Assembly: GCA_903877935.1 (NCBI GenBank)
Contig: CAIRGA010000126.1
Coordinates: 1-32,019, forward strand
Source: an uncultured Hyphomicrobiales bacterium
Lineage (GTDB): Bacteria > Pseudomonadota > Alphaproteobacteria > Rhizobiales > Beijerinckiaceae
Reading direction: 5' to 3'
DNA length: 32,019 bases
The position numbers were made by a program, and so were the translations under genes. Numbering within the stretch: the stretch's first letter is position 1; each line of letters begins with the position of its first letter. Below the pieces are notes generated by a model, which ran no database searches, was not told the origin of the DNA, and saw only the letters and a program-made list of their open reading frames with translations. This document shows, piece after piece, positions 29 through 26,210 of the stretch.

Positions 29-1135
29 CTATTCCGACCGACCGATTGAAAATTTACGCATTTTTTCAATCAGCGTGGTGCGCTGAATGCCGAGCATTCG
101 CGCGGCGGCGGAAACCGACTGCTCGGAATCGGTAAGTGCCACGCGGATAAAATCCGTCTCAAGGGCCGCGATATGGTCTTTCAGGCTGAAGGAGCGATCG
201 GATGTCAGTAGCATCCGGATGGCTTGATCCCGCGCCTCCGATGGCTCCATCACCGCCAAAATGGGTTCTGACGCCATTTGAGATGGATCGGGCTCGTCAT
301 TTGCAAACTCGGCCAACGCATCCCAAATGGCGTCTTGCTCCTCGACCAGCTGACGGGGCTGACCGGGGAAGAGCATTTGGGACATCAAATCGCCATCGAT
401 TGGGCGATCCGCATAAAGCGCCCCTGCCCGCTCCAAGATATTTCTTAATTCCCGGACATTGCCCGGCCAATCATAGGATTTGAGCACATCAAGGGCGCTC
501 TCCGTTAAAATTGGCGGCTTCGGGAAGCCCTGCGCCTCAAAACGCTTGATAATAAAGCCGACAAGCGACGGGATATCCTCCAGCCGCTCACGGAGCGGGG
601 GGAGAAGGATGGGGAAGACATTGATCCGGTAGAACAAATCCTCGCGGAATTTCTGCTCATCGATCAATTGGCGCAAATCGCGATGGGTCGCGCAGACGAA
701 GCGGACATCAATCGAGATCGATTTTGAGCCGCCGACCCGGGTGAAGCTGCGCTCCTCGATCATACGGAGCAGTTTAACCTGCATATCGAGCGGCATATCG
801 CCGATTTCATCCAGAAACAGGGTGCCGCCGCTCGAAAGCTCCATTAATCCCGCGCGATCCCGCATGGCGCCCGTGAACGCGCCCTTTTCATACCCGAATA
901 ATTCGCTTTCAAGGAGCTCGCGGGGGATTGCCCCGCAATTAACCGGTACAAAAGGACCCGACGCCCGGGCCGACCGAAGATGGATCGAGCGCGCGACAAT
1001 CTCCTTACCGCTGCCCGACGGGCCTTGGATGAAGACGGTGGAGCCCAAGGGGGCCACTTTGCCAATCATATCCGACACATTCCGCATCGCCGGACTGGGC
1101 AAATCCATAAATCGCGAAAAATCTTGTTCGGACAC
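29..1135 (-). CDS. sigma54-dependent transcriptional activator (AAA+ domain plus C-terminal Fis-type HTH, no N-terminal receiver); FleQ/FlbD-like
   Basis: Walker A GPSGSGKE, GAFTGA sigma54-contact loop, Walker B GGTLFLDEIGDM, WPGNVRELRN, C-terminal HTH AARMLGIQRTTLIEKMRK; GTG start, alternative ATG at 1108. Confidence 0.9.
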   Translation of the reverse strand: MSEQDFSRFMDLPSPAMRNVSDMIGKVAPLGSTVFIQGPSGSGKEIVARSIHLRSARASGPFVPVNCGAIPRELLESELFGYEKGAFTGAMRDRAGLMELSSGGTLFLDEIGDMPLDMQVKLLRMIEERSFTRVGGSKSISIDVRFVCATHRDLRQLIDEQKFREDLFYRINVFPILLPPLRERLEDIPSLVGFIIKRFEAQGFPKPPILTESALDVLKSYDWPGNVRELRNILERAGALYADRPIDGDLMSQMLFPGQPRQLVEEQDAIWDALAEFANDEPDPSQMASEPILAVMEPSEARDQAIRMLLTSDRSFSLKDHIAALETDFIRVALTDSEQSVSAAARMLGIQRTTLIEKMRKFSIGRSE

Positions 1136-1437: not shown

Positions 1438-2610
1438 ATGAACACGGTACTTTGCATCAACGACAATCTCACCGATGGTGAAGCTTGGATGACCCATCTG
1501 CATATGCGGGGGTATGAGACGGTATCTTGCGATATTAAGAGCCTTGCATCGATTAAGAACGACGCTTGGACGCGGACCGGCCTTCTTCTGTCGCATGAAG
1601 CGGCGAAAGCCTTGGCAACCGACACCGCAGGCCTTGCCGGTTGGTGCCGCAAGCTGAAGGCTGACCGCATTGTGGTTGTCGACAAGCCCGGCGAAACCTT
1701 CTCGCTGAAAGGCGAGTTCAACGGCTCCGTGCTGCGCCTCACCCCTTCGATCGTTGGCTGGCGTTACGCCTCCGAAGTCGCAGCCCGCTTTCTGGATGCA
1801 GATCAGAATGTTGCCGCCGGCGATCCTCAGACCTTTAACCTTCTCCGCCTTGCCCGCCGCGTTGCGATGAGCGATGTCACGGTGATGCTGGTTGGCCCGA
1901 CGGGCACCGGTAAAGAAGTCATCTCAAAGTTTCTGCATAATTCATCCAAGCGCAGCCGCGAGGCCTTTATCGCTGTGAACTGTGCAGCCGTTCCAGACAC
2001 CATGCTCGAAGCGCTTCTGTTCGGCTATGAAAAGGGTGCCTTCACCGGCGCGCATACACCGAATAAGGGCATCTTCAGAGCGGCCGATGGCGGCACGCTC
2101 TTGCTCGATGAAGTGTCCGAAATGGCACCGCATCTTCAGGCCAAATTTTTGCGCGTCTTGCAGGAAAAAGAAGTGACGCCATTGGGTGGCTCGAAGGCTG
2201 TTCCGATTGACGTCCGTGTGATCGCAACCTCGAACCGGTATATGATGGAAGAGGTTAAAGCAGGTCGTTTCAGAGAAGATCTGTACTACCGCTTAAATGT
2301 CTTCCCATTGGCGACCCAAGCGCTTGCTGAACGCCCTGGTGATATTCTCCCGATTTCCATTCTTCTTCTATCGAAGCACACCGGCGGGTTCCCGAACATT
2401 CCGGAACTGTCAGATGCAGCGATTGAAAAATTAGAAGCCTATGCATGGCCAGGCAATGTCCGCGAATTGGAAAACGTGCTTCAGCGCGCGCTTGTTCTGT
2501 CCGGTGGCGCTGTTGTTGAGCCTGAGCATCTGATGATTGAGCTGCACGATACGACGGCAACGCTGATCGATTTTGAACCTGTGCAAAAGCGTCACGCGGT
2601 TGCTGGTTAA
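1438..2610 (+). CDS. sigma54 activator-like AAA+ protein with degenerate receiver-like N-terminus and no HTH (FleT-like)
   Basis: GPTGTGKE, GAFTGA, GGTLLLDEVSEM, WPGNVRELENVLQRA; protein ends ...VEPEHLMIELHDTTATLIDFEPVQKRHAVAG with no Fis HTH; RBS aaggag. Confidence 0.85.
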   Translation: MNTVLCINDNLTDGEAWMTHLHMRGYETVSCDIKSLASIKNDAWTRTGLLLSHEAAKALATDTAGLAGWCRKLKADRIVVVDKPGETFSLKGEFNGSVLRLTPSIVGWRYASEVAARFLDADQNVAAGDPQTFNLLRLARRVAMSDVTVMLVGPTGTGKEVISKFLHNSSKRSREAFIAVNCAAVPDTMLEALLFGYEKGAFTGAHTPNKGIFRAADGGTLLLDEVSEMAPHLQAKFLRVLQEKEVTPLGGSKAVPIDVRVIATSNRYMMEEVKAGRFREDLYYRLNVFPLATQALAERPGDILPISILLLSKHTGGFPNIPELSDAAIEKLEAYAWPGNVRELENVLQRALVLSGGAVVEPEHLMIELHDTTATLIDFEPVQKRHAVAG

Positions 2611-5776: not shown

Positions 5777-6611
5777 TTCAAGCTCGCGCCGCTTACGTCC
5801 AAAAGATGCGGCGATGTTTGCGAAAGTCGGCGGCGACTTCGTCGAAGAAGGACGCTTTACATCCGCCAATGACGGCGCGTTCGTGCCTTGGGGAAAGACG
5901 TCGTTCAAAGTTGTGGTCGAAGACCAAATCGTCGATGAGAACGCATTACCGGAATACAAGCCTGAAGTTGTCGAGCCGACTGCGGCCGAGATCGTCGATG
6001 AAGCTGCACGCGAGGCTGAAGCCGCAGCGATGGCGGCATCTGAGGCCCAACGGCTTGAGCAGGAAGCACAGGCGGCCGGGCAATTCGTGCCTCCTCCACT
6101 CGCTCAGGAGGCCCCTCTTAATAGCGCAGATATCATTGCTGAAATTGAAAAGGCGCGTGAAGATGGACGCGCGATCGGCTATCAACAAGGTGTAGCGGCG
6201 GCGCGCCAAGAACTTGCCGATGTAATGGCAGCCATCAGACGCCTTGAAGATCATTTGATTCCCGCAACCGAAGAGGTTTTGGAAAAGAATACGGCCATTA
6301 TGGCGCGTCATGTTCGCCGCATTGCGCAAGATCTTGCTGGTAATGTGTTTGCGACCATTCCTGAAATGTTTATCGACCGGATCAAAAAATCAGCCGATAT
6401 GTTCACGCGCGCTGGTTCCGAATTTACATTGGCGATTAACTCAAAAGACGCTCAGGCTTTAATGCCGGCGCTTCGCGGTGAAGAGCTGTTTAAATCGATC
6501 AAGATTATCGAGGATCAAGATTTACCCCATGGCGGTTTCCGACTGACGGGTCGTGATCTTGAAGTCGAAGATATTCCTGAAATGCTGGGCGTTGCTGAGG
6601 AAGTGCCATGA
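5769..6611 (+). CDS. fliH: flagellar assembly protein FliH
   Basis: position between fliG and fliI; C-terminal ...IKIIEDQDLPHGGFRLTGRDLEVEDIPE; charged helical middle region. Confidence 0.85.
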   Translation: MSNSSSRRLRPKDAAMFAKVGGDFVEEGRFTSANDGAFVPWGKTSFKVVVEDQIVDENALPEYKPEVVEPTAAEIVDEAAREAEAAAMAASEAQRLEQEAQAAGQFVPPPLAQEAPLNSADIIAEIEKAREDGRAIGYQQGVAAARQELADVMAAIRRLEDHLIPATEEVLEKNTAIMARHVRRIAQDLAGNVFATIPEMFIDRIKKSADMFTRAGSEFTLAINSKDAQALMPALRGEELFKSIKIIEDQDLPHGGFRLTGRDLEVEDIPEMLGVAEEVP

Positions 6612-16225: not shown

Positions 16226-16454
16226 TTTAGCACGTCACCAACAACCCATCTTCAAAACAACGACCGCATCCTGCCAAGGATGTCGGCACTTTACGATTAC
16301 CCACAAAGCCGCGCGGCCTTATGGCTGCAAAGCATTCGGAATCATGTCCCGCCAACATCCCGCGCGAGATATCCTGAATTCATCCGGCGAGGCCTGCCGG
16401 ATGCGTTCTATGTCGCCTAACGCCCCTTTCGCCCTTGAAGGAGACTTTTCATGA
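16218..16454 (+). CDS. small four-cysteine protein, putative metal-binding, unknown function
   Basis: CQGC...PYGCKAFG...SGEAC pattern; overlaps flhB end by 8 bp and next gene by 4 bp. Confidence 0.7.
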   Translation: MSNLARHQQPIFKTTTASCQGCRHFTITHKAARPYGCKAFGIMSRQHPARDILNSSGEACRMRSMSPNAPFALEGDFS

Positions 16455-17326
16455 GCGCCCCTAAAAAGCCTGCCGCTGCCCCTGCCCCCGCCCCTATAGC
16501 TGTTGAGCCGGAGGAACATCACGAGACCGATGAACATCATGATGCGGATGCGTCAAAGGCAGAAGGCACAAAAGGCGAAGTGAATTTAAGCAGCTTGAAG
16601 CCTGCAAAAGTTCAGCCGTCAATTGACGAGTCCATTCAGCTCGCGCTCGCTTCTGCGGGGACAGCCGCCGATGCGTCGAAAGAAATTCAACGGCTTAAAA
16701 AGCAGGTCAATGAACTTGTTGCCGGCAATTCGCGTTCGAACAAAGTATTGCTTGGCACCGGTGTTATCTTTCTGTTTATGGCGTCCATTGCGCTTGGCGT
16801 TTCAGTCGCGTTTTATTTTAAGGCGATGAACCGGTTTGACTCGATTACCAATGTCAACCGTGACGCGCTGATGGCCTTTGCCGAAGAAGTCAACGCATTC
16901 ACCGAAGCGGCAACGCGGGTCGAGCAAGCGGCCAATGCAACAGAAAAACGGCTTGCGGCCCTGTCCGAGCAACAAGAAGAAATCAAAGTAGCGTTGCAAG
17001 GTGATTTGACCAATCAAAAGGCCATTGAAGCCAGGCTCATTGAGAATGGCGAGATTATCAATCAAATGCCGCCAGCTACACGCAAGATTGTCGATGATTT
17101 GCTGGCTTCTAACAAATTGATTGTTGGCCAAGTAGCGGAGGCGATGCGCGAGCAAATTAAGGCCATGGAAGCCAATAATCCGAAAATGGATATCGCCAAG
17201 CAAATCGAAGACATCGCCAAAAATCAGCAAGCGGCTGTTGCGCGCGCGGCATCTATTGAAGCCCAGCAAAAATCCAAAGCGCGAAAGCCCGGTCCAGCAA
17301 CCGACTCGATGATCAAATACCCGTGA
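16451..17326 (+). CDS. single-TM coiled-coil protein with His/Glu-rich N-terminus, unknown flagella-associated
   Basis: RBS gaaggagac; EEHHETDEHHDAD; TM VLLGTGVIFLFMASIALGVSVAFYF; long helical C-terminal half ending KPGPATDSMIKYP. Confidence 0.8.
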   Translation: MSAPKKPAAAPAPAPIAVEPEEHHETDEHHDADASKAEGTKGEVNLSSLKPAKVQPSIDESIQLALASAGTAADASKEIQRLKKQVNELVAGNSRSNKVLLGTGVIFLFMASIALGVSVAFYFKAMNRFDSITNVNRDALMAFAEEVNAFTEAATRVEQAANATEKRLAALSEQQEEIKVALQGDLTNQKAIEARLIENGEIINQMPPATRKIVDDLLASNKLIVGQVAEAMREQIKAMEANNPKMDIAKQIEDIAKNQQAAVARAASIEAQQKSKARKPGPATDSMIKYP

Positions 17327-17352: not shown

Positions 17353-18018
17353 ATGACGGTTCAGACGGAAATATTCTCAGGCATGGCGGCCCGCGTGAAG
17401 GACGTTCAAAAGGCCACGCCTGCTGAACGAATGGGCTTGATCCCCGGCGACATTATTTTAAAGCTCGGCAAACATGAGCCCATCGAGGCGGTCGAAATGC
17501 CGAGCGTGTTGGACGATATATCGGGTTCGAGCGAGTGGATCGTTATCAAACGCGATACGGTTATTTTTCGCGTTTCGCCTGCCGGTGGTGCGATGGGCGC
17601 TATTTTGGAAGCCTTTCCAATTCCCGATGAGATCACGCTGGAAACTGAGGGGCCTTGGATGCAATACCATGCCTGCCTTCGGCCGAATGATGCGATGTTA
17701 TTAATTCCCGATCGTATTTCGGCCATCTGGTGGCCCATACCGGTGATCGCCTATGGCTATTTTCGATTGTGGCAGATGATGGGAGCCACTTTATTTTTGT
17801 ATGGCATCGGTTATGTGACGAGCCCTCTAGCCTTTGGCGTCGTCTATATAGCGAGCGTCATGATTTTGGTTACCGGCGGGCCTTATCTTTTAAGGGATAC
17901 GGCGTTCAAAGATGGGTTCCATCCGCGTGGGCGTATCGCAATCGGCAAGCCTGGCGATGTGGCGACGCTCGAAATGGTGACAGGGGCGATGCTGCGCCTC
18001 AATACAAAGCACAAATAA
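17353..18018 (+). CDS. PDZ-like domain membrane protein, unknown function
   Basis: ATPAERMGLIPGDIILKLGKHEPI PDZ-like carboxylate-binding region followed by hydrophobic segments WWPIPVIAYGYF and FGVVYIASVMILVTGGPYLL. Confidence 0.7.
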   Translation: MTVQTEIFSGMAARVKDVQKATPAERMGLIPGDIILKLGKHEPIEAVEMPSVLDDISGSSEWIVIKRDTVIFRVSPAGGAMGAILEAFPIPDEITLETEGPWMQYHACLRPNDAMLLIPDRISAIWWPIPVIAYGYFRLWQMMGATLFLYGIGYVTSPLAFGVVYIASVMILVTGGPYLLRDTAFKDGFHPRGRIAIGKPGDVATLEMVTGAMLRLNTKHK

Positions 18019-18026
18019 GCGCTCCG

Positions 18027-18446
18027 TTATCGACGGCCATGCAGCGAAATAATCGACTCGACCGCATGCACGGGTAATCCCGTTTTAGCGACGATCAGGT
18101 CGCTTGAAACACCCTCGCGTGCCAAGCGGATCGCGGCATCAACCGACTCCGGATTTTCTCGTGTTGTCTGGCCAGCGCCCCGAAACACAATTTCCAAAGA
18201 TTTGATCTCGGCCTGAACTTTCCGGATGGTTTCCGTGAACGAGCCTTCAAGTGCAATGCTGGAGCGCACAACGGACGAATCGATCATCGAGAGCCGATCG
18301 GACAAATCGCCTAATTTGGATAAAGTCTTGGCGTGTTCGAGAGCGTTTTTACGATAGACGTAATAAACTGCACCCGCTGCCGGAAGACCGGCAAAGACCA
18401 GAGAAATGCCACATACGATAAAGAAATCTGCTACACTCATTGACAA
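18027..18446 (-). CDS. DUF2802-like membrane-anchored protein
   Basis: N-terminal TM, coiled coil, C-terminal AAIRLAREGVSSDLIVAKTGLPVHAVESIISLHGR. Confidence 0.6.
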   Translation of the reverse strand: MSMSVADFFIVCGISLVFAGLPAAGAVYYVYRKNALEHAKTLSKLGDLSDRLSMIDSSVVRSSIALEGSFTETIRKVQAEIKSLEIVFRGAGQTTRENPESVDAAIRLAREGVSSDLIVAKTGLPVHAVESIISLHGRR

Positions 18447-18742
18447 TAACTAACACGACCCGGTTTGTTTTTCAGCTTGCGCCGAACACTGATCGTCTCT
18501 TTAGCAGTCATTCGTTCAGCAAGCAATTTTTCTAAGCGTATTGTCGTCTCTAATACTTTCTCCGCACGGAAGCGCTCGTCGTCGGAACCGGGAACGCAAG
18601 CGGTTATCCCAGCGAGCACCGCATGGAGATCAAAGGTCAGCGTTTCGATCATGGAACGATCTTTCTCCATAATGGAGGATTCCATCGCCGCCAAAATATC
18701 GGCGGTTCGACCGATCGTATCGAGGAGCACAGGTTCAGACAT
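18437..18742 (-). CDS. small helical protein, FlgN-like export chaperone candidate
   Basis: position after flgA; ~100 aa helical protein; overlaps downstream gene by 10 bp. Confidence 0.5.
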   Translation of the reverse strand: MSEPVLLDTIGRTADILAAMESSIMEKDRSMIETLTFDLHAVLAGITACVPGSDDERFRAEKVLETTIRLEKLLAERMTAKETISVRRKLKNKPGRVSYCQ

Positions 18743-18767
18743 TAGAAATTACGTCTCCAAAGCGAAA

Positions 18768-19523
18768 TTAATGAACCAAAACCAAGCCGGCATGAGCAAC
18801 CTTACCGGTGATAACAATGCCAGTTTTGACGTTTCTGACGGCTAAAATGTCACCCTCATACCCATCCTCTTCGGCACGGCCGGGCGTTTCGATTGAAAAC
18901 CCTTCCCCTTCCGCCGATAGGGTGACCGTCTCGCCCTTCATGATTGTAGGCGCGCGCGCAACATTGCGTGTCGTTAACGCAATGCCCGGTGAAACGGCAG
19001 TTGTGATGCGTAACCCAATGGCTTCCTCAATGCTTTTCAAAGAAGCGCCACCCGGTGGCACATCGGTCACGCGCTCTTCAACCATTGAAGCGTTTAAAAT
19101 CGTGCCGCTCGGGATCGATACCCGAGGAACGACAACATGCCATTGCTGGATAGGGCCATTGGTCATTGCTTTGGTCGAAGGAGTGGGAGCGAGAGGGATA
19201 TTGCCATCGGCATCGACCCGAATATTAAAGGTCCATACGTGCGGCGCGCTACAATGAACGACAAGGCTCGTGCTATAAGCGCTGCGTGGCGAAATATCGG
19301 GCGCACCGTCACAGGCAGGGACTTGCATCCGGTCATCGAGTGGACCGATCACAACCTTCGCATCAATCGGCTTACCCGACGATGCCATGTAATTGCGAAC
19401 CGCTACGCGGATATCTTCCGCGCCCCAAAATCCCTCGGCCGCCAAGCTTGATTGAACGCCTAATAATCCAACGATTGCGGCAACCTTAAATGAGGTTTTA
19501 AACGTCATGTTCGCGGTCCTCAT
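18768..19523 (-). CDS. flgA: flagellar P-ring chaperone FlgA
   Basis: signal peptide; VVPRVSIPSGTILNASMVEERVTDVP, IGLRITTAVSPGIALTTRNVARAPTIMKGETVTLSAEGEGFSIETPGRAEEDGYEGDILAVRNVKTGIVITGKV (SAF-type). Confidence 0.93.
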   Translation of the reverse strand: MRTANMTFKTSFKVAAIVGLLGVQSSLAAEGFWGAEDIRVAVRNYMASSGKPIDAKVVIGPLDDRMQVPACDGAPDISPRSAYSTSLVVHCSAPHVWTFNIRVDADGNIPLAPTPSTKAMTNGPIQQWHVVVPRVSIPSGTILNASMVEERVTDVPPGGASLKSIEEAIGLRITTAVSPGIALTTRNVARAPTIMKGETVTLSAEGEGFSIETPGRAEEDGYEGDILAVRNVKTGIVITGKVAHAGLVLVH

Positions 19524-20617
19524 TGCAATAAAACCGCAACGGAATTGAGACGCACTGCAGGGCTGGCCTTCATCAAGCGAGCCACGGACTGCGACGCGCC
19601 CGCTGATTCAACGCGTATAATTTGCCATGAATTCCGGTCTTGCGTCGGCAGTTCGACGAGGAAAAAGTCACCCGGCTTAACGCCGTTGGAGCTACCAGCA
19701 GAAAGCGTTGCACGATTTCCACTAACGGCCGTTACAACAGCCCTTAAGGACTGACAGCCAATATGGTCTGCCAACCGCTCGGCAACCGATTGCCAAAGGC
19801 TAGTCAAATCACTGGCATGCTCTTGCGGCAGATTAATTTCAGTGCCCCAAATATGCTTATCAAGCGCCAATGTTACATGCTCGGCAATCGTCTCTTTGAC
19901 AGCACCGGACACATTATCAATGAGCTGAAAGTCAGCGCTCACATCAACGACTGTTTCGCCAACCACGGCATTATCTACGCGCGTGCGTTCAAGATTGAGC
20001 GAGCCGGAAAGCGTGTAGGCGCCGGGGCTTTTGGTGTGGCCCGCGAGTGCTTCCAAATATTTGGTATCCTGACGGACGGCGGTCGAGGTTTCGGAAACGG
20101 GGCTAAAGCGACGATCATCAATGACATGGAGCGTTGATTGATTGTTGAGCTCGGAAATAAGTCCTTCAATGCTTTGTCTCGCCTGACGTTCAATGGCACC
20201 GGGCAAACCGGGAGCAACGCGGATCCCTATGGCGCCAATGGCAATATCAGCCTTTTTTACCGAACCGCATTCGCTGTCATCCGTCTCGGCAAGCGCATCG
20301 ATCGTGACCACATAGTGCTCACCCTCGCGATGCTCTTCAACGACGTCATACCCTTTCAACAAACCTGAAACGGCAATGCCACTTTCCTCATGAAGGGTAC
20401 CCGCATTCGACATAAAGGACGTACCCCGCACGACCATGCGAACTTGTCCGGCTGCATCATAAAGCGCTTCGGCCAGTGCTGATTTCCGAGCACCCGCGAT
20501 ATCTTTGCCAGCAATCGCTGCTCTACCGACCGCATGAATAAGGCGCGTGCCGGCATCTGCGGAACCGGTCGCAACAAGGATCAAAACGAGCGAGGAAAGA
20601 AAGAGGCGCAGACGCAT
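19520..20617 (-). CDS. flgT: FlgT-like flagellar outer ring (H-ring) protein
   Basis: signal peptide; ARKSALAEALYDAA N-domain; C-terminal ATLSAGSSNGVKPGDFFLVEL module; adjacent LPP20 lipoprotein and flgA. Confidence 0.7.
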   Translation of the reverse strand: MRLRLFLSSLVLILVATGSADAGTRLIHAVGRAAIAGKDIAGARKSALAEALYDAAGQVRMVVRGTSFMSNAGTLHEESGIAVSGLLKGYDVVEEHREGEHYVVTIDALAETDDSECGSVKKADIAIGAIGIRVAPGLPGAIERQARQSIEGLISELNNQSTLHVIDDRRFSPVSETSTAVRQDTKYLEALAGHTKSPGAYTLSGSLNLERTRVDNAVVGETVVDVSADFQLIDNVSGAVKETIAEHVTLALDKHIWGTEINLPQEHASDLTSLWQSVAERLADHIGCQSLRAVVTAVSGNRATLSAGSSNGVKPGDFFLVELPTQDRNSWQIIRVESAGASQSVARLMKASPAVRLNSVAVLLQ

Positions 20618-20625
20618 GGCTTGGC

Positions 20626-21066
20626 TTACTTCGGGGTTGGCGCGCGATTAGCCGTCATTGTCGCGGCATCGGCGGCATCAATTTCCAAGATTGTTTCGTA
20701 AATATCGGTTTTGATCGGACCGATGCTGACCGTCCGGGCGCTGCGAACGAGACCCGCAACCGTGCCGCGCAGCGTATCGGCCTGCATGACCGTTTCAGAC
20801 AGGGAGGAATAGGAATTGATATCAATGCCGTAAATTTTTTCGGCCAATTCCCGCATGGCTGCAAGCCGTGAAGCCCTAATCGCCATTAATTGCTTTTGAA
20901 CCCGTGTTTTACCGGGCTGTATCGAGATAGCAGCATAGCCGACGCCGCGAATAGAAGCCGACGACATGGCTGCCAAATTGGGGCTTTCCATTGCCGGGGC
21001 GCAACCAGACAGCATTGATCCGACGAGGGAAAAGGAAGCAAACAAGGCAAAATCACGTATTTTCAA
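20626..21066 (-). CDS. flgP: LPP20/FlgP-like lipoprotein
   Basis: TTG start 21066 with RBS aaaggg; lipobox LSGC; GVGYAAISI...QKQLMAIRASRLAAMRELAEKIYGIDI...VAGLVRSARTVS; ORF-track start at 21219 lies upstream of its promoter. Confidence 0.7.
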   Translation of the reverse strand: MKIRDFALFASFSLVGSMLSGCAPAMESPNLAAMSSASIRGVGYAAISIQPGKTRVQKQLMAIRASRLAAMRELAEKIYGIDINSYSSLSETVMQADTLRGTVAGLVRSARTVSIGPIKTDIYETILEIDAADAATMTANRAPTPK

Positions 21067-21139: not shown

Positions 21140-21155
21140 AGCAATTTTGGTGCCA
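21140..21155 (-). promoter_or_regulatory. sigma54 promoter (CTGGCACCAAAATTGCT on minus strand) for the flgP-flgT-flgA operon
   Basis: AGCAATTTTGGTGCCA on plus strand; TGGCA-N6-TTGCT. Confidence 0.75.
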
Positions 21156-21184: not shown

Positions 21185-21200
21185 TGGCACATCCCTTGCT
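21185..21200 (+). promoter_or_regulatory. sigma54 promoter TTGGCACATCCCTTGCT upstream of flhA
   Basis: TGGCA-N6-TTGCT, about 100 nt before the flhA GTG. Confidence 0.8.
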
Positions 21201-21298
21201 TCTGACATTGCGCGACCAACCCAGACCTTCAAAATTCGAAGGAAATTGGGCGTTCTGACGAGAAATCGACGGAATTCTGACATAAGGGATATAGTGAA

Positions 21299-23404
21299 GT
21301 GACTGAAGTGCTGTCGATAAACCAACAGAATAGCTTAGGCCGCCTCACCAAGGCGCTGATATTGCCGTTGGCTTTGGTTGCCTTCATTGTCATGATGGTC
21401 ATTCCGATCCCGCCCTTCATGCTCGATCTGTTTTTTACCGCGAACATCGTCATTTCGCTTTCGATCCTGATGGTCAGCGTGAATATGTATCGGCCGCTGG
21501 ACTTCTCGTCGTTCCCGACCATTCTTCTGTTCGCCACTATTCTGCGCCTGACACTTAACGTCGCTTCGGCACGTGTGGTGTTGGTTCATGGCCATGAAGG
21601 AACGCAGTCCGCCGGCCAAATCATTGAAGCCTTTGGTGAATTTGTCATTGGCGGCAATTTCGTCGTCGGCATTCTGGTGTTCATTATCTTGATGGTCATC
21701 AACCTCGTCGTGATCGTGAAGGGTACCGGCCGCGTGTCGGAAGTGAGCGCACGCTTTACCCTTGACGCAATGCCCGGCAAGCAAATGGCCATCGATGCCG
21801 ACCTTAATGCCGGCCTGCTGACACCCGACCAAGCCCGCAAAAGACGCGCGGAAGTCGGCAGAGAGTCGGACTTTTACGGCTCAATGGATGGTGCGACAAA
21901 GTTCGTGAAAGGTGACGCTATTGCCGGCGTGATCATTCTCGGCGTCAATATTCTTGGCGGTTTGGTGATTGGCATGGTGCAGCATGGTCTGCCTGCCAGC
22001 CAAGCGGCCTCAACCTATATTACACTGACGATCGGCGACGGTCTCGTCGCGCAGATCCCATCGCTTCTGTTGTCGATTGCAACCGCTATCATCGTGACCC
22101 GTGAAGCGGGCGGCGCCGACCTGACCGAAACATTGATGAAGCAAATCGGTTTGAAACGCGCTTGGTGGCCTGTTACCGGCATATTGACCTTGATTGGTAT
22201 TATGCCCGGCATGCCTAATCTTCTTTTCTTAGGAGCCGCGGGCATCGCAGGTGCCATTGCTTATTATGGTAATATTGGCAACAGCAAGGCATCTGAAGAA
22301 GCTGCAGCCGCACCCGCCGCAGCCGCACTTCCTGGTGCCGATGAACCCGAAGACGATGCCAATAGCGAACAGGTCTCGATCAAGGACGTCACCAATACAA
22401 CGCCGCTCTTGGTACAAGTGGGCTATGGCCTCATTCCATTGATTGAAGACCAAGCCCGTGGCGCGCTTATTTCCCGCATTACAGGCCTTAGAAAACAAGT
22501 GTCACGCGATCTTGGCTTTGTTATTCCGCAGGTTCGAATCCGTGATGATCTGACGCTCATGCCGTCCGCCTACCGGATTACGATTGCAGGCGTCATCGTC
22601 GCTGAAGACCAAGTGATCAACGGTAAATTACTGGCGATCCAAGGCAGCAACACAAATCTTGTGCTCCCGGGACAGGCCGTTAAAGATCCGACCTTTGGCC
22701 TTGATGCGGTCTGGATTGATCCTGCTGATAAGCCTCGCGCCATTGCGGCTCAATATACGGTCGTTGACGCCGGAACGGTTATTGCGACCCATCTGCATCA
22801 GCTTCTTATTCAGCGGGCGGCTGATTTGCTTGGCCAAGATGATGTGCAAGAAATCATCGACCATTTTGCAAAATCTTCGCCGCATCTCGTGCAAGGTGTT
22901 GTGCCGAAAATGGTCTCGCTTTCGCAGCTAACACAGGTGTTAAAGGCACTTATTGCCGAGCAGATTCCGATATCCGATATGAAGCGTATTCTTGAGGCTG
23001 TTTCGGGCTCAAAGGGCCGCGAAATCGATGACCTCGTAGAAGCGGCACGTATCGCGCTCGGACCAATTTTGATCCAACGCATCTCATCGCCGAAGGAAGA
23101 ATTACCGATTGTAACGATCGACGCTGGCCTTGAGCAGTTGATGATCCAAAACGCCCGCCAGAATGGTCAAACGGGCAATGCGATTGAACCGGGCCTTGCG
23201 CAAAAGCTGATGCAAGCCTTTGAAGAACAGAGCAATCTACTCGCCAAAAACGGTAAAACACTGGTTGTGATTACAACGCCGATGTTGCGGCGTGAATTAG
23301 CAAGTCTCGTGCGTCAAGTCGCACCCGACGGCCTTGTCCTATCGTTTAAAGAATTACCTGAAAATAAACGCGTAACTGTTGTTGCCGTAATCGGCGGCGC
23401 ATAA
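21299..23404 (+). CDS. flhA: flagellar export gate protein FlhA
   Basis: FPTILLFATILRLTLNVASARVVL, RVSEVSARFTLDAMPGKQMAIDADLNAGL; GTG start. Confidence 0.98.
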   Translation: MTEVLSINQQNSLGRLTKALILPLALVAFIVMMVIPIPPFMLDLFFTANIVISLSILMVSVNMYRPLDFSSFPTILLFATILRLTLNVASARVVLVHGHEGTQSAGQIIEAFGEFVIGGNFVVGILVFIILMVINLVVIVKGTGRVSEVSARFTLDAMPGKQMAIDADLNAGLLTPDQARKRRAEVGRESDFYGSMDGATKFVKGDAIAGVIILGVNILGGLVIGMVQHGLPASQAASTYITLTIGDGLVAQIPSLLLSIATAIIVTREAGGADLTETLMKQIGLKRAWWPVTGILTLIGIMPGMPNLLFLGAAGIAGAIAYYGNIGNSKASEEAAAAPAAAALPGADEPEDDANSEQVSIKDVTNTTPLLVQVGYGLIPLIEDQARGALISRITGLRKQVSRDLGFVIPQVRIRDDLTLMPSAYRITIAGVIVAEDQVINGKLLAIQGSNTNLVLPGQAVKDPTFGLDAVWIDPADKPRAIAAQYTVVDAGTVIATHLHQLLIQRAADLLGQDDVQEIIDHFAKSSPHLVQGVVPKMVSLSQLTQVLKALIAEQIPISDMKRILEAVSGSKGREIDDLVEAARIALGPILIQRISSPKEELPIVTIDAGLEQLMIQNARQNGQTGNAIEPGLAQKLMQAFEEQSNLLAKNGKTLVVITTPMLRRELASLVRQVAPDGLVLSFKELPENKRVTVVAVIGGA

Positions 23405-23417
23405 GGAGAATAAAGCC

Positions 23418-24656
23418 ATGATGCAACGTACAAAAATCGTCGCTGAGGATAGCCGTGAGGCCATGGCCAAGGTGATGAAGCAATGCGGTGAAGACGCCGT
23501 TATTCTTTCCACCCGTAAGGTTCCCGGCGGCATTGAAATCATTGCCGGTCACGAGCCTAAAAAATCCATGTTTGCGTCGCTGGGTCTCGAGCGTAGCTTT
23601 GGCCTCGATGACGAGGATGATGGCGAGGATACGGAAATCGTTGAGCGCAGCGCACCAACGCCGTCACCGTCGCATGCCGGTAAAACCTTTCAGCAAGTGC
23701 TCGCAGAAAGCGGCCGCGCGGCTGATCTTCTCCGTCCATCGGCCTTTCAATTCAAGCCGGCTCCGAAAGAAGAAGTGCCAGAGCCAAAGGCTGTCGAAAA
23801 GCCAAAATCGGAAACGGTTGACTCGTCCCGCCTTGAAGCCATTGAACGCTCGGTCCGTGAGATGCGCGCCATGCTCGGTTCGGAAATGATGCTGAGTGGC
23901 TTGAAAACCGCCGGCGCCTCGCCTGCCCTGATCTCGGTCTTCCTGGCCCAATCGGGCGCGCTTGCTTCGGTTGATCCGGATCGTCGCTTTGCGAAATTCT
24001 TGGCTGATCGTATGGTCCATAAGGCGCCGCCACAATTAACCGGTGGCCCGCGTGTTGTTCTCACCTTGGGCCCGAGCGGCTCCGGCAAAACCACCCTACT
24101 CGCCCAAATGGCCGCTCGTGCGCGTATGGAATCACCCGAAGAGAAGCTGACTTTTGTGAATGCCGACTCATCCCGCTTTGGCGCGGCTGAGCAATTACGT
24201 GCCTATGGGCGGATTTTGGACGTGCCGGTGATTGATGTCGAGCATCCATCCGAATTGGCAAAGCTGACAAAAAACTCCGGTCAGCGTTTGTCGCTCTTTA
24301 TCGACATGCCAAGCCAGCCGCATGAAAATAGCGCGCTCTTGGATATCCTTGAACGCCACCGTGAAGATTTGCCGAACATGACCAGTGTTGGCGCGATTGC
24401 ATCCAACCTTTCTACCGATGCCATCGACAGAATCTTGACACGCTATCCTAACCTTGATGCCCTTGCTTTAACGAAACTCGACGAAGCACCGCTGAATCTA
24501 TCGACATTTAGCCTCCTTAGCCTACGTGGCCCGGGAATTGCTTATCTTGCTTCGACTTCGCATCTTGTGAAGGGCTTAATGGCAGTCGACTCGGATATGC
24601 TGGAAAGCGTCATTCACGCAAGCTTGGTCGGCAGTGAAGCCGAGCAACTTAACTAA
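23418..24656 (+). CDS. flhF: flagellar SRP-type GTPase FlhF
   Basis: GEDAVILSTRKVPGGIEI N-terminus; LGPSGSGKTTLLAQMAARA; FVNADSSRFGAAEQLRAYGRIL; LALTKLDEA. Confidence 0.94.
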   Translation: MMQRTKIVAEDSREAMAKVMKQCGEDAVILSTRKVPGGIEIIAGHEPKKSMFASLGLERSFGLDDEDDGEDTEIVERSAPTPSPSHAGKTFQQVLAESGRAADLLRPSAFQFKPAPKEEVPEPKAVEKPKSETVDSSRLEAIERSVREMRAMLGSEMMLSGLKTAGASPALISVFLAQSGALASVDPDRRFAKFLADRMVHKAPPQLTGGPRVVLTLGPSGSGKTTLLAQMAARARMESPEEKLTFVNADSSRFGAAEQLRAYGRILDVPVIDVEHPSELAKLTKNSGQRLSLFIDMPSQPHENSALLDILERHREDLPNMTSVGAIASNLSTDAIDRILTRYPNLDALALTKLDEAPLNLSTFSLLSLRGPGIAYLASTSHLVKGLMAVDSDMLESVIHASLVGSEAEQLN

Positions 24657-24667
24657 CGGAATTTGGC

Positions 24668-25492
24668 ATGAAACGTCCGCAGGCTACAGCCATTACGAGC
24701 GGCAAAGGCGGGGTCGGAAAGACAAATCTTTCCGTCAACCTGGCCCTCGCCCTTCATCGCGCCGGACAAAAGGTGGGTATTTTTGATGCCGATCTGGCGC
24801 TCGCCAATGCCCATCTCGTTCTCGGCTGCCGTCCTAACCGGACGATCGCCGACACGCTGTCGGGATCATGCACCATGGCGGAAACCATCGTCGAGTCCCA
24901 ACACGGGGTGAAGATGATCGCAGGCGGAAGCGGCCTTGCAGAAGTCATGGGGTTGTCGGACGAAACACGACAGAAAATCATTCGCGGATTTAGCGAATTA
25001 TCCGGCGAGCTGGATCATCTGATTGTCGATACGGCAGCCGGCGTTGAATCGAACGTGATCGATTTTGTTGCCGCGTGCGATCGAGTGATCGTTGTGGTGA
25101 TTGGCGAGCCGACGGCCTTTGTTGACGCCTATGCATCGATCAAAGTTTTGCATCAGGAAACGGGGCGCGAGCGGTTTGATATCATTGTCAATCGCGCACC
25201 AAGCTTGGCGCATGGCGACCAGATTTTTTCACGCTTCAGAGCCATTACGGATAAGTTTCTGAAAGTGTCCTTAAATCATTTGGGCACTGTACCCGACGAC
25301 GACAAATTGGTTCGTGCGGTTGGTCGATGCGAACCTGTAATCGCAAGCTTCCCGGACTCGCCTTCGGCGAAAGCCATTTTGCGAATTGCGGAGCAGATAC
25401 GCTTAACTGAGCCGCCCATGGTCGATGAAGGCGCGATTGGATTTTTCCGCCCCATGCCCGATTACGTCCGAACCGCAGCGACGGGAGCCTAA
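24668..25492 (+). CDS. flhG: MinD-family ATPase FlhG (FleN)
   Basis: ITSGKGGVGKTNLSVNLALALHRAGQKVGIFDADLALANAHLVLG. Confidence 0.94.
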   Translation: MKRPQATAITSGKGGVGKTNLSVNLALALHRAGQKVGIFDADLALANAHLVLGCRPNRTIADTLSGSCTMAETIVESQHGVKMIAGGSGLAEVMGLSDETRQKIIRGFSELSGELDHLIVDTAAGVESNVIDFVAACDRVIVVVIGEPTAFVDAYASIKVLHQETGRERFDIIVNRAPSLAHGDQIFSRFRAITDKFLKVSLNHLGTVPDDDKLVRAVGRCEPVIASFPDSPSAKAILRIAEQIRLTEPPMVDEGAIGFFRPMPDYVRTAATGA

Positions 25493-25496
25493 GGCT

Positions 25497-26210
25497 ATGG
25501 GACTCCGGGCATACCCCATGACCGCCACAAGCAGTGAGGCCATCAATAATCTGGTGCGAACGCATATGCCGTTGGCACGCAAGATTGCTTGGCAAATTCA
25601 TGGCCGCGTGCGGGACTTGCTCGATATCGACGATATGATTCAAATCGGAATGACGGCGCTTATTGAAGCTGCCCAGCGTTTCCAAGATACGGGTGAAGCC
25701 ACTTTTGGCTCTTATGCTTCCATTCGCGTGCGCGGCGCCCTCGTCGATCATGTGCGCAACAACCTGACCTTGACGCGAACGGCGGTGACGCGCCGCGATC
25801 AAATTGCCGCGGCCCGTCGGGCAGTGGCGTCGGAGGGTGGCAACAGCGATGATCTTACCTTGGTCGCCCTTAAATTGGGAATCAGCATCGCCGAACTGCA
25901 AGGCTGGAACGATCAGATCAGTCGCGTGGCGGATAAATCGCTCGACGAAATTTATGATGACCATTCTGTGTGGTTTGCCGATGAAAGCCCGACACCGGAA
26001 AATGCACTGTTAACAATGGAAACGCGCGAAAGGCTCGTCGCCAATCTCAAGAAATTGCCGGAGCGCGATGCGCTGGTGCTTCAACTTTATTACGTTGAAG
26101 AGATGAATTTGGAAGAAATTGCCGAGACCTTATCGGTATCGGTTGGACGCATTTCGCAAATTAAAAAAGCAGCCGTTGGCCACCTTAGGAAGTGGATGAC
26201 GGAGGACTAA
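25497..26210 (+). CDS. fliA: RNA polymerase sigma-28 factor FliA
   Basis: HMPLARKIAWQIHGRVRDLLDIDDMIQIGMTALIEAAQRF; FGSYASIRVRGALVDHVR; LVLQLYYVEEMNLEEIAETLSVSVGRISQIKKAAVGHLRK; ATG 25497 or 25518. Confidence 0.93.
   Translation: MGLRAYPMTATSSEAINNLVRTHMPLARKIAWQIHGRVRDLLDIDDMIQIGMTALIEAAQRFQDTGEATFGSYASIRVRGALVDHVRNNLTLTRTAVTRRDQIAAARRAVASEGGNSDDLTLVALKLGISIAELQGWNDQISRVADKSLDEIYDDHSVWFADESPTPENALLTMETRERLVANLKKLPERDALVLQLYYVEEMNLEEIAETLSVSVGRISQIKKAAVGHLRKWMTED

Follow-up and report, generated by a model that had tools for sequence, protein, structure and literature searches.

The flgP-like and flgT-like genes in this stretch of DNA are, with good confidence, the true flgP and flgT of a second, Fla1-type flagellar system in freshwater Beijerinckiaceae. 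The stretch (the window; 32,019 nucleotides) is the whole of one contig (C126) of a freshwater Beijerinckiaceae MAG (G000; 2.7 Mb in 226 contigs), which represents a lake alphaproteobacterium with a small genome. The contig carries almost nothing but flagellar genes, in a cluster of the acquired type. An earlier note on this DNA had described a FlgP-like lipoprotein and a FlgT-like protein, encoded next to flgA in an apparently alphaproteobacterial cluster; the three open reading frames are indeed there. Reading leftwards from flhA, the minus strand has an operon-like array:

20626 to 21066, minus strand: flgP, predicted outer-membrane lipoprotein and H-ring or basal-ring subunit (146 amino acids, TTG start, lipobox LSGC)
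19520 to 20617, minus strand: flgT, predicted periplasmic H-ring protein (365 amino acids, signal peptide, cysteines C117 and C288; overlaps flgA by 4 bp)
18768 to 19523, minus strand: flgA, P-ring assembly chaperone (ChapFlgA, 1e-20; TIGR03170, 6.4e-25)
18437 to 18742, minus strand: candidate flgN-like export chaperone (101 amino acids; named for its position after flgA, the same place as a 94-amino-acid reading frame after flgM in L035)
18027 to 18446, minus strand: DUF2802 membrane protein, the last gene of the array (PF10975, 1.8e-4, under the cut-off; the same gene ends the array in L024 to L028)

The flgN-like reading frame had no Pfam match. There is no flgM between it and flgA (18742 to 18768), though fliA is present in the window. 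At that place, flgM is found in G002 (L035, 7679 to 7984), G015, G023, and Octadecabacter.

A phmmer search with the window's FlgP found the solved Vibrio FlgP chains 9yec, 8z5n, and 9yfg with E values of 2e-13 to 1e-12 (the best were 2.4e-13 and 4.4e-13). Another solved lipoprotein, 9hmf (possibly Campylobacter FlgP), was matched far more weakly (E = 1.3e-5). A profile of the FlgP family also matched a profile of gammaproteobacterial FlgP (profile-profile comparison, P = 99.8). The protein has a signal peptide and a lipobox, and the cysteine of the LSGC motif, which the earlier note had picked out, is invariant in five near-relative sequences. The alignment to Vibrio FlgP covers a 92-residue core with at most one gap, and there are no gaps after the long helix. 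The ring-forming hairpin of FlgP follows the long helix (PMC12222027), from which we infer that this gap-free stretch is the ring hairpin.

The neighboring protein is a full-length, divergent FlgT. FlgT_N is the sole FlgT domain that Pfam matched, just under the cut-off (E = 3.9e-6; above the cut-off in a six-frame scan), and a single-sequence phmmer search against the PDB had no match. NCBIfam matched neither FlgT nor FlgP. Profiles gave much more: when 12 FlgT sequences of the family were compared to 30 gammaproteobacterial FlgT sequences with hhalign, the match spanned 327 columns (P = 99.2, E = 1.6e-19), at about 13% identity between the two profiles. All six controls (FlgA, FliL, orf291, the PDZ protein, FliH, and FlhG) had P < 1. 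With an 18-sequence FlgT profile, hmmsearch against the PDB found 3w1e, the crystal structure of FlgT from V. alginolyticus, and three FlgT chains from ring structures, including 8z5n and 9yec (E = 1e-7 to 5e-6 in all; 1e-7 to 9e-7 for 3w1e, 8z5n, and 9yec). Foldseek, given the AlphaFold model of FlgT, ranked 3w1e and the LPHT-ring chain 8z5n first (E = 3e-9), and unrelated lipoproteins ranked below the FlgT structures. The models of FlgT and FlgP have low confidence (pLDDT 48 and 42), so we treat the fold match as supportive only. Between them, the profile, PDB profile, and fold searches place FlgT_N, FlgT_M, and FlgT_C along the full length of the protein. C117, C288, and a set of residues in the N domain are invariant in 18 alphaproteobacterial FlgT sequences. 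The names "FlgP-like" and "FlgT-like" thus understated the relationship, which goes beyond the generic LPP20 fold. In our literature search, we found no paper that names FlgT together with Beijerinckiaceae.

The rest of the contig identifies the flagellum to which these genes belong. From the left, it has two sigma-54 activators (the first of them is on the minus strand), fliF-G-H-I-J-K-L-M-N-O-P-Q-R, flhB, orf291, and a PDZ protein, with fliJ and fliO assigned by position. To the right of flgP, the plus strand has flhA, flhF, flhG, fliA, a rod or hook gene, flgB, flgC, and flgD. The features that we refer to below are:

29 to 1135, minus strand: sigma-54 activator of the FleQ/FleT type (GAFTGA motif, read by eye), divergent from the next
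1438 to 2610, plus strand: second sigma-54 activator, upstream of fliF (PF00158, 4.3e-63)
16451 to 17326, plus strand: orf291, bitopic membrane protein directly 3' of flhB (homologues hold this position in Octadecabacter, E = 9e-9, and in G162, E = 1e-6; these are small-database E values)
17353 to 18018, plus strand: PDZ and transmembrane protein (PDZ_6, 6.3e-6; related clusters have it here too)
21140 to 21155, minus strand: sigma-54 promoter-like site for flgP-flgT-flgA (TGGCAC-N5-TTGCT, no mismatches; kept in near relatives)
21185 to 21200, plus strand: sigma-54 promoter-like site for flhA (no mismatches; conserved in this position throughout the genus)
21299 to 23404, plus strand: flhA of the Fla1-type system, by tree, and the divergent neighbor of flgP (FHIPEP, 6.8e-236)
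23418 to 25492, plus strand: flhF and flhG (Pfam SRP54 GTPase and ParA/MipZ-type ATPase; synteny)
25425 to 26210, plus strand: fliA, sigma-28 (Sigma70 regions 2 and 4)

The gap between flgP and flhA thus holds two perfect TGGCAC-N5-TTGCT sites, back to back, one for each direction. Across the window, 8 sites have no more than one mismatch, versus 1.28 expected, and none of 100 shuffled sequences had as many. The cluster therefore appears to be under sigma-54 control with two activators, as in the Fla1/fla3 type. A longer, 197-amino-acid reading of FlgP would start at 21219, upstream of the site at 21155 to 21140, so we consider that start unlikely.

The earlier note had likened the neighborhood to the flg genes of Vibrio. 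The genes flgP and flgT do sit with flgA, but the order is that of other Alphaproteobacteria, with the array pointing away from flhA-flhF-flhG-fliA. This operon also lacks flgM. This block (flgP-flgT-flgA and the DUF2802 gene, with flhA-flhF-flhG-fliA opposite) is kept in the genus and in two other genera of Beijerinckiaceae, is the same in families f33, f43, and f133, and is also found on plasmid pOA238_118 of Octadecabacter arcticus. Family f128 has flgP-flgT-flgA without the flhA side, and flhB and its neighbors are on the same contig. Three f33 genomes that keep flgP and FlgT (G067, G200, and G299) are very small, at 1.4 Mb.

Wherever we checked, the FlgP/FlgT pair is accompanied by its own type of FlhA. 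Among 60 relatives, FlgT was found in 13, and FlhA of the window's type (66-100% identical) was found in exactly the same 13. G004, from the same genus, has neither of these, only other types of FlhA, and G015 and G023 have both kinds of FlhA. In a tree of FlhA, the window's protein falls with those of f33, f43, f133, f47, Octadecabacter, and f37 in a clade of 25 rows (SH-aLRT 99), apart from the native FlhA of Alphaproteobacteria. We assigned this clade to the Fla1/fla3 type via the plasmid of Octadecabacter (Rhodobacterales) and family f47; R. sphaeroides itself is not among the named rows of the tree. Because the gammaproteobacterial rows are best matches only, the tree alone is no proof of a gammaproteobacterial origin. 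The f37 genomes whose FlhA falls in the clade are L104-L110, L112, and L116. In f37, we found no match to FlgT_N among the genomes drawn from the phylum and no FlgP among those drawn from the class.

The MAG itself has a second flgG-flgA-flgH-flgI set, in the native order, on contig C54 (L053), and C145 (L054) appears to continue the window's flagellar system. The two copies of FlgH are 34% identical and the two copies of FlgI are 42% identical, which implies two sets of flagellar genes in one small genome. The assembly yielded a single FlhA, which is not of the native type. We conclude that flgP and flgT belong to a separate Fla1-type system that stands beside partial native-type genes. Given that the neighborhood has the arrangement of the other alphaproteobacterial clusters, they are not an addition to the normal alphaproteobacterial flagellum.

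Could the two proteins instead be generic LPP20-type envelope proteins that lie beside flgA by chance? FlgP has a match to the generic LPP20 Pfam model, below the cut-off (E = 0.012), and FlgT, FlgP, and Lpp20 have an SHS2-type fold in common (PMC12222027). But the matches described above are specific to FlgP and FlgT and run along their full length, the pair strictly co-occurs with one type of FlhA, and the gene order is conserved across families. For these reasons we reject a generic identity as very improbable. If flgP-flgT alone had recently been transferred from a gammaproteobacterium to a native flagellar cluster of an alphaproteobacterium, this would fit with the lack of FlgT in most of the other sampled genera of Beijerinckiaceae. 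However, FlhA, encoded in the cluster too, is no more native than they are, which implies that the system was transferred or inherited as a whole. Also, in a tree of concatenated FlgP and FlgT, the alphaproteobacterial sequences group apart from the gammaproteobacterial ones (100/100), and no gammaproteobacterial sequence is nested among them. We therefore reject this transfer as well, and see hardly any chance of it.

The full proposal of the earlier note is a Vibrio-like H-ring that supports a sheathed, sodium-driven, high-torque motor. FlgP and FlgT are H-ring proteins, and in Gammaproteobacteria, the H-ring genes accompany sodium stators (PMC6375700). The genome also has a candidate stator, on a contig (C127) with no physical link to the window. 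Its MotA is similar to PomA (E = 3e-53), and its MotB matches PomB in the membrane segment. This MotA keeps the equivalent of T158 of PomA, which, given the role that we take T158 to have, is compatible with sodium and does not show it; a residue pattern is no proof of the ion. (On another contig, C98, motA precedes a tandem pair of motB-like genes that are 45% identical to each other, at 6347 to 9464 of L056; this stator is of a different, longer type than the one on C127.)

Against a sheathed or sodium-driven motor, there was no match to FlgO (PF17680) in the MAG or its genus, in line with the earlier note, which saw none in the window, and the same model does detect Vibrio-type FlgO (E = 1.8e-45). 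MotY, which the note had proposed to look for, was also missing: MotY_N was absent from all eight alphaproteobacterial genomes, and the same search was positive in five of five gammaproteobacterial genomes. The named relatives include lake MAGs (we took the habitat from the isolate names), and the four near relatives named in a scan with the window's FlgT are MAGs labelled Beijerinckiaceae, Hyphomicrobiales, or Rhizobiales. Moreover, Fla1 of R. sphaeroides has FlgT, FlgP, and an H-ring, lacks MotX and MotY, and uses protons (PMC7277832), so the ion cannot be read off from H-ring genes. Neither a sheath nor sodium drive is indicated here, and we consider that part of the proposal unlikely. The other part, an outer module of the H-ring or basal-disk type, follows from true FlgP and FlgT homologues that are linked to flgA, and it is likely, by analogy to these systems, that FlgP and FlgT make an H-ring.

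The closest characterized motor to this Fla1-type system is Fla1 of Rhodobacter (Cereibacter) sphaeroides (a fla3-type cluster, RSP_0032 to RSP_0083). Fla1 is also a second, non-native flagellar cluster in an alphaproteobacterium, with FlgP, a divergent FlgT, and sigma-54 activators of the FleQ and FleT types (PMC7277832, PMC11974857). Both lack MotY (Fla1 lacks MotX as well), and both have their stator genes outside the cluster. In contrast to R. sphaeroides, the window is from Hyphomicrobiales/Beijerinckiaceae, and its genus has no flgM in this operon. Workers on Rhodobacterales refer to the Fla1 cluster as fla3, and, as they describe it, fla2 and fla3 were both acquired from other orders of Alphaproteobacteria (PMC11974857).

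pOA238_118 of Octadecabacter arcticus 238 has a similar arrangement, with flhA divergent from FlgP-FlgT-flgA-(flgM)-small ORF-membrane ORF, and with orf291 and PDZ reading frames after flhB. Unlike the window, it has flgM, motA/motB within the cluster, and a SEL1-repeat gene beside the module, and its FlgT is only 25% identical to the window's. (As a candidate for MotX, the SEL1-repeat gene, at 23156 to 23749 of L072, matched only generic SEL1 proteins.) The order flhB, bitopic protein, PDZ-transmembrane protein is common to the Beijerinckiaceae clusters, Octadecabacter, and G162; a PDZ/DUF2628 reading frame follows the orf291 homologue in Octadecabacter, and the PDZ match is weak in G162. From its place and topology, orf291 is possibly the counterpart of MotF from Fla1.

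The H-ring of the Vibrio polar flagellum (FlgO, FlgP, and FlgT) is homologous to the window's proteins over the full length of FlgP and FlgT, but the window's genome lacks FlgO and also lacks MotY of the Vibrio T-ring (MotX and MotY), and the gene order differs. The basal disk of Campylobacter jejuni (FlgP and FlgQ) has the FlgP family in common with the window, but it is built from FlgP rings without FlgT (PMC12222027).

How might this motor work? Homology, gene order, co-occurrence, the promoter-like sites, and the absence of FlgO and MotY were computed; for ring formation, partners, and stator recruitment, we reason from Vibrio and R. sphaeroides. In R. sphaeroides, FlgT forms the H-ring and interacts with FlgH, FliL, MotF, and MotB, rotation stops if it is lost, and FlgP is required for assembly (PMC7277832). 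Most likely, FlgP and FlgT brace the motor here as they do there. Transcription of flgP-flgT-flgA and of flhA probably starts at the two divergent sites and depends on sigma-54 and the FleQ/FleT-type activators. FlgP would be exported and lipidated and would make a ring that encircles the L-ring beneath the outer membrane. FlgT would be exported to the periplasm to form the H-ring, joining FlgP and the L-ring (FlgH), and would be a hub where FliL, the possible MotF-like protein, and the stator dock. FlgA would load the P-ring.

What we see is a known machine with a wider range: the FlgP/FlgT pair is present, in one conserved order, in Beijerinckiaceae and in several other alphaproteobacterial families. 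This broad distribution is the interesting part. One tentative reading, to which we give rather less than even odds, is that the FlgP/FlgT flagellum is an old, co-inherited second lineage of Alphaproteobacteria, as opposed to a gammaproteobacterial system that was borrowed once by Rhodobacter, and that its minimal H-ring (with neither FlgO nor a T-ring) takes over the docking of the stator. The finding is also a warning that "H-ring genes" should not be read as "sheathed, sodium-driven motor." And these flagella offer a natural series in which H-rings occur in the absence of FlgO and MotY, so that the contribution of FlgT by itself to the stator can be examined.
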